Made by a program: the position numbers and the translations under genes. A stretch of 64,000 nucleotides of DNA. Source: Clostridiales bacterium (GTDB taxonomy: Bacteria; Bacillota; Clostridia; Christensenellales; CAG-138). Shown piece after piece: positions 3,777 through 42,573 of the stretch; the first letter of the stretch is position 1; each line of letters starts with the position of its first letter. The DNA lies in the NCBI GenBank assembly GCA_012838425.1, contig DUPG01000001.1:1-64000 (forward strand), read 5' to 3'. The notes below the pieces were generated by a model. The model was not told where the DNA came from and made no database searches. It saw nothing but the letters and a program-made list of their open reading frames with translations.

Positions 3777-4388
3777 ATGTACGCATATATATCAGGCACA
3801 GCAACGGATGTAGGCGCAGACTATTGCATATTAGAAGCAAATGGAGTCGGCTACCTGCTGTATTGCAGCTCTAATACGCTAAACAAGGTCAAGCTTAATG
3901 AAAAAAGCAGGCTGTTGACGCACTTGCATGTCGCTGAGGACGCGCTTTCGCTGTACGGCTTCTATTCTGAAGAGGAACGCGCCATGTTCCGCAATCTGAC
4001 AACCGTTACGCGCATAGGCAACAAGACTGCGCTGTCAATACTGTCCATGCTTACGGTTGAGGATATAACTATGGCTATAATCACCGAGAATGCAGCCGCG
4101 TTCGATTGCGTTCCCGGAATAGGCAGAAAAACCGCCGCAAGACTCATATTGGAGCTTAAAGAAAAGATCGCAATGCCTTCTGCCGCAAAGACCGCAAAAG
4201 AGATTACAGAAGAAAACGAGGAGGCTACGGGCTTCTCTATGCGCTCTGAGGCTATTGAGGCGTTAATAGCGCTGGGCTATGACGGTTTGACAGCAGGCAG
4301 AGCGGTGGCAGGCGTGAAGGACGGCGAGTATTCAACAGTAAAGCAGCTTATAAAGCTTGCGCTGGCTAACATAGGAGGGAAAAATTGA
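3777..4388 (+). CDS. ruvA: Holliday junction DNA-binding subunit RuvA
   Basis: Tetrameric junction-binding protein that loads RuvB and drives branch migration. 203 residues, the normal size. The N-terminal OB-fold begins MYAYISGTA; helix-hairpin-helix segments are seen at [12 protein letters not shown] and [13 protein letters not shown]; the C-terminal RuvB-contacting domain ([11 protein letters not shown]) ends the protein. GGAGG sits just before the ATG. The stop overlaps the ruvB TTG start, so the two are probably translated together. Confidence 0.95.
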
Positions 4389-5407
4389 GCGACTATAATG
4401 ACTATAATAGAGATATAATTTCTTCTTCAATGCTTGCGGAGGACGAGCAGTTAGAACTTTCCCTGCGTCCGCGCCTGCTGTACGAATACATTGGGCAAGA
4501 CATTGTTAAGGAGCACATGCAGATATTCATAAACGCGGCAAGGCACAGGAAAGAGCCGTTAGACCATACGCTTTTGTACGGTCCTCCGGGATTGGGCAAA
4601 ACCACGCTTGCGAATATCATATCAAACGAAATGGGGGCTAACATATATAAAACCTCCGGTCCTACATTGCAGAGAGCAGGCGACTTAGCGGCTATACTCA
4701 CTAAATTAGAATATGGCGATGTGCTGTTCATTGACGAAATACACAGGCTGAACCCGAATGTAGAGGAAATACTCTATCCTGCAATGGAGGACTATTCTAT
4801 TGATATTATACTGGGCAAGGGTCCTGGAGCGCGCTCAATTCAGTTAGACCTCAACAAGTTCACGCTTATAGGCGCTACTACGCGAATGGGGCTGTTAACC
4901 TCACCACTGCGCGACAGGTTCGGCATAAAAGAGCACTTGGATATGTACGACACCGAAGCATTGAAGCAGATTATAACAAGAAGCGCAGATATACTTGGAG
5001 TAGAAATTGACGAGGAGGGCGCGAACGAGCTGGCGAGCCGCTCACGAGGCACTCCGCGAATAGCTATCAGATTGTTGAAGCGCGTGCGCGACTTTGCGCA
5101 GGTTAAGGGCGACGGCAGAATAACGCTTAACACCGCTAAAATGGGGCTTGATATGCTGGATATTGACGAGCTTGGCTTAGACAAAACAGACAGGCGCATA
5201 TTGGAAACCATGATATTGAAGTTTGAGGGCAGGGCTGTGGGCTTGGAAACGCTTGCAGCGGCGACAGGCGAGGACCCGCAGACTATAGAGGACGTATATG
5301 AGCCTTATCTTTTAAGATTGGGCTATATTGCACGCACTCCAAGGGGCAGAGTTCCCCAAAGCGGCGCATACAGGCATTTAGGCTTGGAAATAGCAAAAAC
5401 GGACTAA
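4385..5407 (+). CDS. ruvB: Holliday junction branch migration helicase RuvB
   Basis: AAA+ motor that pumps DNA through the RuvA-bound junction. 340 residues, standard length. Walker [11 protein letters not shown], Walker B FIDEIHRL, sensor/arginine-finger segment [18 protein letters not shown], and a C-terminal winged helix ending [13 protein letters not shown] are all present. Translation starts at TTG (4385), which overlaps the ruvA stop; AGGAGGG lies five bases upstream. Last gene of ruvCAB. Confidence 0.96.
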
Positions 5408-5471
5408 TTAGTTATTGAAATACTATACTTTTTACATATATAATTAGAATATATTAAGAGGCAACGAAAGG

Positions 5472-6371
5472 GTGGCAAATATGCGTAAAAAAGAGTTAGA
5501 GGCGCTTGCAGCGAAGCAGGGAGAGGAATTAGCAAAGGCAAAGGCGAAAATAGCCGAATATGAAAAGCAATTAGAGGAGTACAGGCTTAGGGAAGAAAGC
5601 ATAGTAGAAGCGCTTACTACTGCCTCTGAAACGAAAAAGCGCGTATTGGAGCAGGCTGAGAAGGAGCTTGGTCACGCGCAATCACAGGCGCAAAAGGCCA
5701 TAGAAAACGCTAAAAACGAAGCTAACGCAATAATAGCGGCGGCGAAGGAAAAAGCCGAGCGCCTGATAGCCCAAGCACAAAAAAGATGCGAGGAATTAGA
5801 AAAGGAAGCATTAGCAAAGATAAAGGAGCAGAATGCGCTGCACAACGAGATGAGTGCTTCGTTAGCGAATATGGCACAGAAGCTGCACAGCTATATTGAG
5901 AGGTTTCAGCCTAAGTTTGCAGGAGCAGACAAGAAGCCGGCAAGTAAGACAATAGAATTCCCCGAAGAATATGAATCACCTGCCGAGCTATACCACTATA
6001 TAATGAAGCTGAAAGAAGAAAGCGATGAAAGCGACGAGAGCGAAGAAGCCGAAGAAGCAGCCAATACAGCCGAGCAAGAGCCAAAGGCGCCTAAGTTTGT
6101 AACCGTAACCGAGAACCTGCTTTCACAGGAAGAGATCGACGAGGCTATATTGGTTCCCGCAACGCTTGGTGATAAGCCCGAGGAAACCGAGCAGGCGAGC
6201 GAGAGCAAAGCAGAAGCAAGCGAAGCAGCAAGCAGCGAAGCCGACGCAGAAGCCGAAAGCGAAAAAGCAGAAGCCACAAGCAATACCGAAGAAGCCAGTC
6301 AACCCTTGAGCGATTTTGAAGCCGAGCTTGAAAAGGTACGCGAAGCGGTGTTGGCGGTGCTTGAGGAGTAA
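5472..6371 (+). CDS. Coiled-coil DivIVA-like protein
   Basis: A 299-residue cytoplasmic protein with no enzymatic motif. Residues 1-150 form an almost continuous Ala/Glu/Lys-rich coiled coil, including the AKEKAERLIAQAQKR stretch typical of DivIVA/GpsB-family or ATPase-b-like coils. Residues 185-290 are acidic and low complexity (repeats of SDES, EAEE and SEAD), probably disordered, with a short helical end. Two starts are possible: GTG at 5472 with AAGAGG ten bases before it, or ATG at 5481 with AAAGGG ahead. DivIVA-like proteins mark cell poles or division sites; that role is only suggested here. It stands alone between ruvB and a predicted terminator. Confidence 0.6.
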   Translation: MANMRKKELEALAAKQGEELAKAKAKIAEYEKQLEEYRLREESIVEALTTASETKKRVLEQAEKELGHAQSQAQKAIENAKNEANAIIAAAKEKAERLIAQAQKRCEELEKEALAKIKEQNALHNEMSASLANMAQKLHSYIERFQPKFAGADKKPASKTIEFPEEYESPAELYHYIMKLKEESDESDESEEAEEAANTAEQEPKAPKFVTVTENLLSQEEIDEAILVPATLGDKPEETEQASESKAEASEAASSEADAEAESEKAEATSNTEEASQPLSDFEAELEKVREAVLAVLEE

Positions 6372-38984: not shown

Positions 38985-39033
38985 TCAAGGTCGATAAAGC
39001 AGTACCGACATATTGAGTAAAGGAGTATCGGTG

Positions 39034-41922
39034 ATGAACACCGTTTTTGCTAAAATAAAATCAGTCGCCAAGCGCGTATATTCCAGTATAAAGAGATTCG
39101 TATTAAAAGCAGTTGCGAAAATAAGGAGTATTTCCCGGGAAATATGGTTGAAAATCACCAAGCGCAGCAATGACGACGCGGAGCTTACAAAGCGCTTTGA
39201 CCGCTCGCTGCTGCAACTGAATGAGGAACAGCACACTATGGAAATGCAGAACACGACACAAACGAAAAAGAAAGCCACTCCACACACAATGTTTAAGAAA
39301 AACGACAAGCCGCGTTCATTCGCGCTGAGCGTGCTTTTCACCACCTTGAAGGTCATAGCTGTAATAGTTATTCTCGCAGGCGCAACGGGCATGGGGCTTT
39401 TATTGGGCGTCGCTAAGGCGTATATAGACACTACACCTATGCTCGATATATCAAGGCTCACAAGCTCGTCAAAGAACTCATATATATACGATGCTAACGG
39501 AGAGCTTATAACGACATTCGCAGGAATGCAGTACAGGGAATGGGCAAGCATAGACGAAATTCCCGATATGCTTAAAAACGCGGTCGTAGCTATTGAGGAT
39601 GTGCGCTTCTACAAGCATGAGGGTGTTGACTATAAGCGCCTAATATCCGCTGTCGTAAACACATTCAGAAATCAGGATACGCATGGCGGAAGCACAATAA
39701 CACAGCAGTTAGTAAAGAACACTATTTTGACTGATGTTCAATCCTACAAGCGCAAAATTCAAGAAGCGTACTTAGCTGTTCAGCTTGAAAAAATAACAGA
39801 CAAGGACGCAATATTAGAGGCGTATCTCAACCAAGTATATTTGGGCGGTTCAAACTATGGCGTGAAATCCGCCGCCAAGGACTATTTCGGCAAGGAGCTG
39901 AATGAGCTTACGATAAGAGAATGCGCAATGCTTGCGGGTATGATTCAAAAGCCCAACTCATTCAATCCGCGCCTAAACACCTATGACCGCATAGACCCCG
40001 AAACGGGCGAAAACTCTATGTGGCGCACCAATGCAAGAACAGATAATGTGCTTATGATGATGTATAACGCAGGCTTCATAACGCTTGAGCAGAAGAACGC
40101 CGCACTCAACGACACAGTAACCATACTTGAGCACTCGAATAAAGAGGGCGTTTATGAAATGGCGTACTTCGTTGAATACGCGCTGTATGATGTAGTAACC
40201 AATATGCTGAAGCAGCGCGGGCTTTTGGACACCAAGGCGAACAGAAACATTATTGAAACCGAAATCCGCACAGGCGGCTACAACATATATACGACTCTCG
40301 ATACGGATATTCAGAGGATTCTTGAATATGAGGTAGAGAATTACGACAACTATCCGGAGCTGAAAAAATCGTCTGCTTCCGTGCTTGAGCAGGAGAACCC
40401 CGACGGTTCTATCACGAAGATAATTCAGCCCCAATGCGCCGCGGTAATAATAGATCACAATACGGGCAATATAGTTGCCCTTGTAGGCGGCAGGGATCGC
40501 CCCGAACAGCAGAAGGTATGGAACAGGGCGTACATGAGCGCTTTGCAGGTAGGCTCGTCTATAAAGCCTATAGCTGTGTATGGACCTGCGCTTGATATGG
40601 GCTTATCGCCTGCAACAATAGCGTATAACATTCCCGGCAGAATAGACGGCTGGAACACCGACAAGGGCTATCCCTCATTGGGTAATACGGAAATAGATGT
40701 CGTTACTGTGAGAAGGGGCGTGCGCTCATCTCTGAATGTTGTCGCTGCAAGAATCTTAATGGAGTATGTAGGCATTGAGAAAGCAAAAGAGTATCTAATT
40801 AAATTAGGCATTCCCGAGGAAAACATAAATGCCGACGGTCCGGGCCTCGCATTAGGTACAACGGGCATAACTCCTATTCAGATGACGGCCGCCTTCGCTA
40901 CAATCGCTAACAACGGCGTGTATATTCAGCCGCTATCCTTTACGAAGGTTACCGATTCTAACGGCAGAGTAATATTAGACGCCGCCACCATACGCGAAAC
41001 GCGCCGCGTGTTCTCGGAATCCACAGCATATCTTTTGGCTGATATGATGAAGGATGTTGTAACCTCGGGCACAGGCACAAGAGCAAGGATTCCGGGAATG
41101 ACAGTAGCGGGAAAAACAGGTACTAACTCAGATTATTCCTCCGTATGCTTCTCAGGCATTACGCCGTACTATGCTTCTTCCGTATGGATTGGGCATGACT
41201 ATCCGCAGAATGTATTGAGGAGCGCAGCTTCGGGCGGACGATACGCAGCACCTCTATTCAAGAACTATATGGAGCGCATACACGAGGGCTTAGAGGATAA
41301 GCCGATATTAGATGTAACCCCCGAATCGCTGGGCTTGGTGCGCAGAACGGTTTGCTCGGTTTCAGGCTTGCTGGCTACAGACGCTTGCCACGCAGACCCC
41401 GACCACAAGCCTATAACCGACTGGTTTACGAAGGAGAATGTTCCTAAGGAAACCTGCAATATGCACATACAGCTTCCCACCTGCACGGAAACAGAGCAAA
41501 TAGCCACGCCGAACTGTCCTGACACTGTTATTCGCTCATATGTGCTGATACCAAGCACATCGCCGCTTATGCGCTTCAATTTGTCTTACATAAGGGGAAT
41601 TTTCAAAAACTGCATTTTCACAGATGAACCCATAGATTCCTTCACAGGGGCCGGGCACTTCTGCACCACTCATAAGCAGCAGGGCAACCCCGACGCCGCG
41701 CTGAATGAGCTGATAGCCGCAGCACGCGCATTGATAGCAAAGGTTGAGGAGCATATTGCCGACCCCGACAGCGGACTTACCGAGGAGCAGATACGCCTGC
41801 TGAACAACGCGATATCAGCACTGAACTCAGCTATTGACAGGCGGAACGATATGGCGATACGCCTGCAAATGCAGCTGTTAATAAATACATTCCTTGAATA
41901 TACGGGGATAGATTTGAGCTGA
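39034..41922 (+). CDS. Class A penicillin-binding protein (PBP1A type)
   Basis: Bifunctional peptidoglycan synthase. 962 residues with a basic cytoplasmic N terminus of about 100 residues and one membrane helix (ILAGATGMGLLLGVAKAYI). The glycosyltransferase domain has EDVRFYKHEGVD and HGGSTITQQLVKN; the transpeptidase has the active Ser in GSSIKP, the SSLN motif and AGKTGTN. A C-terminal extension beyond residue 750 ends in a coiled coil. AAAGGAG lies ten bases before the chosen ATG; the frame is open slightly further upstream. Followed by the glycosylase gene after 24 bases. Confidence 0.94.
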   Translation: MNTVFAKIKSVAKRVYSSIKRFVLKAVAKIRSISREIWLKITKRSNDDAELTKRFDRSLLQLNEEQHTMEMQNTTQTKKKATPHTMFKKNDKPRSFALSVLFTTLKVIAVIVILAGATGMGLLLGVAKAYIDTTPMLDISRLTSSSKNSYIYDANGELITTFAGMQYREWASIDEIPDMLKNAVVAIEDVRFYKHEGVDYKRLISAVVNTFRNQDTHGGSTITQQLVKNTILTDVQSYKRKIQEAYLAVQLEKITDKDAILEAYLNQVYLGGSNYGVKSAAKDYFGKELNELTIRECAMLAGMIQKPNSFNPRLNTYDRIDPETGENSMWRTNARTDNVLMMMYNAGFITLEQKNAALNDTVTILEHSNKEGVYEMAYFVEYALYDVVTNMLKQRGLLDTKANRNIIETEIRTGGYNIYTTLDTDIQRILEYEVENYDNYPELKKSSASVLEQENPDGSITKIIQPQCAAVIIDHNTGNIVALVGGRDRPEQQKVWNRAYMSALQVGSSIKPIAVYGPALDMGLSPATIAYNIPGRIDGWNTDKGYPSLGNTEIDVVTVRRGVRSSLNVVAARILMEYVGIEKAKEYLIKLGIPEENINADGPGLALGTTGITPIQMTAAFATIANNGVYIQPLSFTKVTDSNGRVILDAATIRETRRVFSESTAYLLADMMKDVVTSGTGTRARIPGMTVAGKTGTNSDYSSVCFSGITPYYASSVWIGHDYPQNVLRSAASGGRYAAPLFKNYMERIHEGLEDKPILDVTPESLGLVRRTVCSVSGLLATDACHADPDHKPITDWFTKENVPKETCNMHIQLPTCTETEQIATPNCPDTVIRSYVLIPSTSPLMRFNLSYIRGIFKNCIFTDEPIDSFTGAGHFCTTHKQQGNPDAALNELIAAARALIAKVEEHIADPDSGLTEEQIRLLNNAISALNSAIDRRNDMAIRLQMQLLINTFLEYTGIDLS

Positions 41923-41946: not shown

Positions 41947-42573
41947 ATGAATGAGCTAACGAACGAATTTTCAGAGCTATACGAGCAGGAGCGCAGGCGA
42001 TTGCGGTCTTTTTACGATAGCTTGGGCGATTATGCCTCTCCCGTATTCGGAGAAGGTGATATAAACTCAAAAATCATGCTTATAGGCGAAGCGCCGGGCA
42101 AAAACGAAGCCGAACAGGGCAGGGCATTCGTTGGCAAAGCCGGTAAGCAGCTTAACGAAATGCTTGAATTAGCCAGCCTGAAAAGAGAGCAGCTGTTTAT
42201 CACAAACGCGGTGAAATTCCGACCAATACGAATTGCGAAAAGCAGCATTTCAAACCGCACGCCGACTGTAAAAGAGATAGACTCCTCATTATATGTTCTA
42301 AAAAGAGAGATAGAGCTAATACAGCCAAAATTCGTTATAACATTGGGCAAAACCGCGCTAACTGCTGTTATGAAGCTGACACAAGCGGATTTGTCATTCA
42401 CCGCGCTTAAAGAAATTCAAGGCGTACCTCACAGCATATGCGCAAATGGGTTTGATTTCATACTGTACCCCATGTACCACCCCGCAAGCGTGATTTACAA
42501 CCCGGTTTTGAAAGAAGCTATGGAAATGAGCTTGCGCAGGATACCGCAAATATTGGTTCAGTGTGAAGTGTGA
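41947..42573 (+). CDS. Uracil-DNA glycosylase, family 4-like
   Basis: Base excision repair enzyme of the type-4/5 uracil glycosylase superfamily, 208 residues. Motif I is GEAPGKNEAEQGRAFVGKAG and the C-terminal motif is MYHPAS. Family 4 usually binds an Fe4S4 cluster through four Cys; none of them is visible here (VKFRP stands for the usual VKCRP), so the cluster appears to be missing. Activity without a cluster is plausible for related families. Starts ATG 41947, probably co-transcribed with the PBP. Confidence 0.82.
   Translation: MNELTNEFSELYEQERRRLRSFYDSLGDYASPVFGEGDINSKIMLIGEAPGKNEAEQGRAFVGKAGKQLNEMLELASLKREQLFITNAVKFRPIRIAKSSISNRTPTVKEIDSSLYVLKREIELIQPKFVITLGKTALTAVMKLTQADLSFTALKEIQGVPHSICANGFDFILYPMYHPASVIYNPVLKEAMEMSLRRIPQILVQCEV

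Follow-up and report, generated by a model that had tools for sequence, protein, structure and literature searches.

Family 4 uracil-DNA glycosylases (UDGs; UDGa) bind an Fe4S4 cluster through four cysteines, of which ligands 1 and 2 form a CxxC pair in the N-terminal region and ligand 3 usually lies in a KCRP motif. Both a structural role and a role in redox or DNA signalling have been argued for the Fe4S4 cluster of some DNA glycosylases (excerpts of PMC5295032 and PMC9266487). The uracil pocket of the family has been described for the Thermus thermophilus enzyme (Tth UDGa), in which eight residues (E41, G42, E47, F54, N80, K83, N89, and H155) were followed here. According to excerpts of PMC5387724, F54 stacks on the uracil, N80 reads its N3 and O4, N89 in motif 3 positions the water, and H155 in motif B stabilises the leaving uracil; the roles of the pocket residues are also treated in excerpts of PMC10776899.

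The gene described here lies in a stretch of 64,000 nucleotides from a Clostridiales bacterium (contig DUPG01000001.1, positions 1 to 64,000 of the forward strand), which was analysed as a whole and is referred to as the window. Its product (the window protein) resembles family 4 and lacks all four cluster cysteines. The openly licensed papers in PubMed Central yielded no description of such a cluster-free branch, of the tandem arrangement reported below or of four-Cys UDGs with a long loop; older or closed literature may hold one.

An intact family-4-like gene without the cluster cysteines

The gene (41947..42573, + strand, stop codon included) is an intact open reading frame that starts with ATG and encodes 208 residues. 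The window protein matches the Pfam UDG model with 118.3 bits and passes the NCBI family-4 UDG model TIGR00758 (139.4 bits, cut-off 125.3). These scores, together with the family-4 fold match of the AlphaFold2 model described below, bear out a sequence-only reading in which the gene had been called a family-4-like UDG. The gene is preceded, in the same orientation, by a class-A penicillin-binding protein gene (39013-41922); its downstream neighbour, of the NFACT/RqcH type, is on the opposite strand. A function in anti-phage defence was considered and rejected, because PADLOC at E 0.01 matched neither the window protein nor the tandem pair L042 of Caldicoprobacter algeriensis (four-Cys UDG at 4294-4872, cluster-free UDG at 4923-5564).

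That first reading had also held that the fold motifs are kept and the cluster ligands gone, and the alignment agrees on both points. GEAPG, QGRAFVGKAG, and MYHPAS are found at residues 47-51, 57-66, and 176-181, respectively, and KFRP stands at residues 90-93 in place of KCRP. When the protein is aligned with the four-Cys family-4 protein L046, ligand 3 corresponds to F91 and ligand 4 to S114 (42286..42288, + strand), and R20 and Y23, or a gap, stand opposite ligands 1 and 2, an ambiguity that arises because the N-terminal stretch aligns loosely. The protein contains two cysteines, C165 and C206, neither of which is at a ligand position. The N-terminal helix, assigned from the secondary structure of the model (residues 3-23; 41953..42015, + strand), covers the place where family 4 has the CxxC of ligands 1 and 2 and holds no CxxC itself. 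A frame error that hides N-terminal cysteines, named at the outset as a way in which the observation could fail, is rejected because the open frame 5' of the ATG adds only seven residues, all Cys-free, and because the relatives share this N-terminal stretch and are likewise devoid of the cluster CxxC.

The uracil pocket, the ligand positions, and an inserted loop

All eight pocket residues of Tth UDGa have counterparts in the window protein, and their conservation was followed in 132 distinct cluster-free relatives (defined below). In motif A, GEAPGKNE (residues 47-54; 42085..42108, + strand as for all features in this section), E48, A49, and E54 are invariant in the 19 rows aligned and in 132/132 relatives; they correspond to Tth E41, G42, and E47. 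The uracil-stacking F61 (Tth F54; 42127..42129) and the motif 3 Asn that positions the water, N103 (Tth N89; 42253..42255), are also present in all 132, and N87, which corresponds to the uracil-reading Tth N80 (42205..42207), in 131. K90, adjacent to F91 (42214..42219), is found in 122, and H178 of motif B, MYHPAS (Tth H155; 42472..42489), in 130, the other two having one Phe and one gap. The complete set of eight is kept in 119 of the 132 relatives, and the remaining 13 miss at least one residue, mostly K90. L191 seems to lack motif B.

The suggestion that the activity might be altered is not supported for the window protein, in which the whole pocket is kept. It may apply to related Bacilli-type proteins. 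These long-loop, Cys-poor UDGs (L209, L210, L211, L228, and L233) read TS..RSRP in place of TN.VK.RP, with Ser for the uracil-reading Asn and Arg for Lys, and because of these two replacements their substrate may differ. The source of L210 and L211 is unverified 'phage' records, possibly bacterial contigs.

The position of the third ligand, occupied by F91 in the window protein, is Tyr in 66, Phe in 54, and another residue in 12 of the 132 relatives. All but one of them (131/132) have an aromatic residue at one or both of ligand positions 3 and 4; the exception, L169, reads KCRL. In the alignment, an inserted loop of nine residues (IRIAKSSIS, residues 94-102; 42226..42252) follows KFRP where four-Cys proteins have two residues. 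The spacing between KxRP and the motif 3 Asn varies from 7 to 21 residues among the 132 relatives and is most commonly 11 (83/132), against two in those proteins from the same set that have four ligand Cys. The loop is mostly basic, with a mean net charge of +2.2 (range -1 to +5) over the 132 relatives. The sequence-only reading had recognised neither the insertion ahead of motif 3 nor the aromatic residues that replace the ligands, nor the tandem four-Cys partner described below.

For the window protein, AlphaFold2 gave a model with a mean pLDDT of 91.6 and a pTM of 0.90, in which the loop region (residues 91-100) has a mean pLDDT of 65. Among solved structures the best match is 4zby, a family-4 UDG from Sulfolobus tokodaii (Z 25.6, rmsd 2.1, 189 residues, 33% identity), followed by that of T. 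thermophilus (1ui1; Z 23.7) and then by UdgX (~22); the BdiUng structure 5gn2 is a distant match with 14% identity. The likeness of the model to family 4 is expected, because its input alignment includes four-Cys proteins.

The cluster-free state is common among clostridial relatives

A search of 103 genomes in the window's family gave matches in 47, which divide into a close kind at ~135-190 bits and a second, distant one that scores mostly 50-86 bits. The ligands are missing in all 30 close-kind family loci that were fetched, the window's included. At the level of the class, 165 of 392 genomes matched and 227 had no match of either type; 90 of the 93 strong hits were read as loci (those left out are G382, G446, and G244), and every one of the 90, again with the window among them, is of the cluster-free kind. 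The whole set comprises 132 distinct cluster-free proteins, nearly all of them clostridial, versus 98 proteins with four ligand cysteines. 'Cluster-free' in this set denotes a loop of at least seven residues together with at most one ligand Cys, and L102 and L110, which are not clostridial, were left out. When the rule is lifted, 140 long-loop rows are obtained: 122 without any ligand Cys, 17 with one, one (L110) with two, and none with three or four. The cluster-free state is neither a frame error nor a lone oddity, and it is more than chance because the Pfam and TIGR00758 scores are accompanied by the same state in 30/30 family and 90/90 class loci.

In the window's family, 41 genomes carry a cluster-free protein (one a fragment) and 44 carry another UDG type (56-70 bits), probably family 1, with an overlap of zero among the matches listed; one system seems to replace the other. 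The gene is not indispensable, because it is missing in G001 (86% complete), the only other genome of the same genus examined, and because neither type is matched in the 227 class genomes mentioned above.

A four-Cys UDG gene is often found directly upstream

A gene for a four-Cys UDG lies beside the cluster-free gene in 61 of the 90 class loci, on the same strand in every case, upstream in 59 and downstream in two (L139 and L168). The count is a lower bound because the flanks were of limited length, covering 1.5 kb for L113-L142 and at most ~3.5 kb, or up to the contig end, for L143-L202. All loci together contain 68 upstream pairs, in which the identical proteins L042/L137 and L054/L124 are counted twice. 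In 66 of these 68 pairs, candidate start codons of the cluster-free gene are located -64 to +118 nt from the four-Cys stop codon, often with overlap; the exceptions are L123 and L191. Judged from the sequences, such an overlap of start and stop would be as in translationally coupled operons. The tandem partners are 31% identical on average (24-38%) and belong to different, well-supported parts of the tree, and a recent duplication of a clostridial four-Cys UDG is not supported.

This same-strand arrangement with closely spaced genes would fit a reading in which the cluster-free protein serves the four-Cys UDG as a partner subunit or helper: the proteins would bind each other or act one after the other, with sensing or gating left to the cluster-bearing one and the excision, or assistance in it, to the cluster-free one. 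We consider such a dependence unlikely. No partner was present within the 1.5 kb flanks of any of the 30 loci in the window's family, and in G083, G092, and G080 the cluster-free and four-Cys genes are ~80-99 kb apart on one contig. The low mutual identity of the partners also speaks against it, as do at least nine genomes that apparently contain the cluster-free type only. These come from 13 genomes suspected to be cluster-free-only; the nine, among them G199 and G488 (both 99% complete) and G146 (96%), are without another Pfam UDG match, and the other four have one or more further, weaker matches. The nine genomes without another UDG-family protein fit a self-sufficient enzyme.

An rRNA operon in the same orientation often follows the UDG pair at a short distance (L214, L215, L216, L173, L054, and L152). 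The 16S gene starts ~0.4-2.6 kb past the cluster-free gene in six of the nine large-contig genomes checked; in the remaining loci, a 23S rRNA gene is nearby behind a masked stretch (L143), the 16S gene is on the other side (L195), or none is found (L213). Of 56 draft contigs, 20 break off within 1 kb on the downstream side and four within the same distance on the upstream side, and downstream ends are expected if the repeated rRNA operon breaks the assembly there.

The window's genome assembly shows the cluster-free gene and no four-Cys partner

In the window's genome (G000, 94.8% complete), the UDG model finds two proteins, the window protein and a second one that the NCBI model TIGR04274 identifies as a DNA-deoxyinosine glycosylase (146 bits). 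Searching this assembly with a four-Cys partner as the query returned only the window gene. The partner is absent from the G000 assembly, and incompleteness could in principle explain the absence. Loss of the partner for want of cluster assembly was considered and rejected. SUFBD_core (PF01458), which covers one assembly system, has no match in G000 (control 14/14) and is missing in 85 of the 103 family genomes, and its absence does not explain the partner loss because genomes with a four-Cys UDG, such as G031, lack it too. The endonuclease IV model TIGR00587 has no match in G000; the same model misses 4/14 controls.

The cluster-free protein is under purifying selection. Its median dN/dS is 0.112 in 27 close pairs, and that of the four-Cys partner is 0.085 in 38 pairs. 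It evolves faster than the partner, with a mean identity of 45.6% versus 53.3% and a lower identity in 2062 of 2278 genome pairs. The faster evolution, and the missing gene in the genus mate G001, are features that a decaying paralogue on its way out would share. Decay is nevertheless very improbable in view of a dN/dS of ~0.11, a pocket that is complete in nine-tenths of the relatives, and the presence of the gene in the 90 class genomes read.

The long loop probably preceded the loss of the cluster

Trees of 80, 77, and 75 rows were computed from picked and thinned sets from which several divergent loci were left out; all are unrooted and without an outgroup. In the 80-row tree, from which the N-terminal, loop, and ligand columns had been removed, the cluster-free proteins and one Enterococcus hirae plasmid protein make up one side with a support of 96/89. 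A wider search of the phylum, of which the best-scoring loci were read, added 19 new loci (L217-L235), comprising three cluster-free clostridial proteins, 14 with KCRP, and two of the other, Cys-poor type. The 14 KCRP proteins of these best-scoring loci also keep the fourth Cys and have the long loop, and they look like a missing intermediate. In the 75-row tree, computed without the ligand and loop columns, 40 long-loop rows, including 11 four-Cys long-loop ones, form one side of a branch with a support of 100/99, and the four-Cys members group together (94/94). The window protein, with its nine inserted residues and its place in this clade, belongs to a Bacillota long-loop UDG branch that is marked by an insertion of ~7 or more residues between KxRP and NRxP. 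The idea of a cluster-free branch, raised by the first reading, is thereby sustained, since the clostridial members of the clade lack the ligands, and the word 'lost' is supported by its four-Cys members.

The cluster-free state requires at least three changes on the 75-row tree. Probably the loop was gained first and the cluster was lost afterwards in the clostridial members, a direction suggested for an unrooted tree because the four-Cys state is the general one. Separate losses in Patescibacteria and Saccharibacteria would be the simplest reading of their positions. The existence of four-Cys proteins with the loop weakens the view that the loop is a stand-in for the lost cluster.

The loop also bears on whether the window protein could be a uracil-binding protein or a glycosylase of changed substrate similar to UdgX, for in the alignment the insertion is placed where UdgX has its R-loop (excerpts of PMC10359453 and PMC10776899), and a topology joining UdgX to the long-loop clade could not be rejected (p-AU 0.33). 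We regard this as quite unlikely. UdgX groups with ordinary four-Cys proteins in the free tree, and the pocket of the window protein is that of family 4. Motif A reads GEAPG and not GEQPG (Ala in 132/132 relatives); in place of KRRIH there is IRIAKSSIS followed by N103, the ordinary family-4 Asn at the position of UdgX H109; and the UdgX model TIGR03914 gives 96.1 bits, under its cut-off of 189.95. Membership of UdgX was rejected on these grounds. A reading of the UdgX R-loop as plainly convergent with the long loop is softened by the same p-AU value.

A proposed mechanism for a cluster-free enzyme

The evidence assembled here makes it probable that the window protein is a working family-4-type UDG that folds without an Fe4S4 cluster. 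An active cluster-free enzyme is chemically plausible because the P. furiosus and A. fulgidus family-4 UDGs lose only ~40% of their activity on Cys-to-Ser substitution (excerpt of PMC5295032). We infer catalysis, the replacement of the cluster by aromatic packing, the contact of the loop with DNA, and the lack of iron as follows. The enzyme would flip deoxyuridine out of the DNA, with F61 stacking on the base and N87 recognising its N3 and O4. The uracil O2 would be bound by the E48 backbone and the H178 side chain, both of which would also stabilise the base as it leaves, and N103 would hold the water that attacks the sugar; the product would be an abasic site for base-excision repair. The cluster would have the structural job of linking the N-terminal segment with the region of ligands 3 and 4; aromatic packing (F91 in the window protein, Phe or Tyr in most relatives) and the N-terminal helix may take over this job. 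The flexible, mostly basic loop at residues 94-102 probably touches the DNA. In many Clostridia, a single operon would produce both a cluster-free and a conventional four-Cys UDG, and in the window's genome the cluster-free enzyme would act apparently without a four-Cys one.

A conserved cluster-free enzyme that shares the pocket, and whose gene often comes right after a cluster-type one, offers a natural comparison of a UDG with and without the cluster in the same host and probably on the same substrate; the four-Cys long-loop relatives provide a matched third point. If the proposal is confirmed, a protein that is automatically annotated as 'family 4 UDG' need not be an iron-sulfur protein. 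A possible practical use would be as a UDG from anaerobes that is indifferent to oxygen. More speculatively, and with a low probability, the two genes may constitute a clostridial uracil-repair module in which a cluster-bearing UDG that responds to redox state or iron is paired with a cluster-free one that does not, lineages like the window's having kept only the latter; the four-Cys long-loop UDGs may in addition bridge family 4 to the loop later used by UdgX for its nucleophile.

Comparison with known systems

A further likeness is to the UDG-like domain at the N-terminus of phage family-A DNA polymerases (9qhs; SPO1 gp31, L206). It has the UDG fold (9qhs, Z 16.3), and the SPO1 stretch is without cluster ligands, as in the window protein; it differs in being fused to a polymerase and in reading VQENP, in SPO1, where the window protein has GEAPG. 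Family 5 (UDGb) is characterised by GLAPA and HPSPLN (excerpt of PMC10359453), whereas the window protein has GEAPG and HPASVI.

UDGs of the family-4 kind that miss the full ligand set, as the window protein does, are also found in Patescibacteria (KDRP), in Saccharibacteria (KYRP), and on a haloarchaeal plasmid (L207), but these have a short loop and other replacements and are located elsewhere in the tree, L207 being a long branch of uncertain place. The KDRP type, with Tyr at ligand position 4 and no ligand Cys, is seen in Patescibacteria and some Chloroflexota (L066, L051, L061, L060, L074, L055, L053, L097, L048, and L085). The KYRP type of Saccharibacteria (L073, L052, L043, and L064) has Phe at ligand position 4 and again no ligand Cys. 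L207, from a Halobaculum plasmid, passes TIGR00758 with 154.1 bits and contains no Cys at all.

UdgX (6ail from Mycobacterium smegmatis, and others) shares the superfamily fold (Z ~22) and the place of the insertion with the window protein. Unlike the window protein, with its A49 and N103 and none of the cluster Cys, UdgX carries Q53 in motif A and a nucleophilic histidine, H109, within KRRIH, and it binds an Fe4S4 cluster (excerpts of PMC10776899 and PMC10359453). Three proteins annotated as UdgX (L203, L204, and L205) have His (KHFK) at the third ligand position and Cys at the other three.

The four-Cys long-loop UDGs of Bacillota (L219-L224, L226, L227, L229-L232, L234, and L235) belong to the same clade as the window protein and share GEAPG and the loop before NRxP. 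They differ in having KCRP and the fourth-ligand Cys, and 12 of the 14 also have a CxxC ahead of motif A.

Family 4 itself (S. tokodaii 4zbx/4zby and T. thermophilus 1ui0/1ui1) shares with the window protein the fold (Z 25.6 and 23.7), motif A GE(A/G)PG, the pocket residues, the motif 3 Asn, and the motif B His. The family-4 Gly (Tth G42) is A49 in the window protein, Ala being the usual alternative, and motif B, HPAAVL in family 4 (excerpt of PMC10359453), is HPASVI at residues 178-183, identical in HPA only. The window protein departs from family 4 in the missing cluster Cys, in a loop of nine residues rather than two between KxRP and NRxP, and in a longer N-terminal helix. Set against families 4, 5, and X together, it agrees with the family-4 model and pocket and carries the signature motifs of neither of the other two. 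Because it lacks the four cysteines of the Fe4S4 site, it is filed as a variant and not as a typical member; from its sequence, it is best classified as a cluster-free variant of family 4 that is distinct from UdgX.
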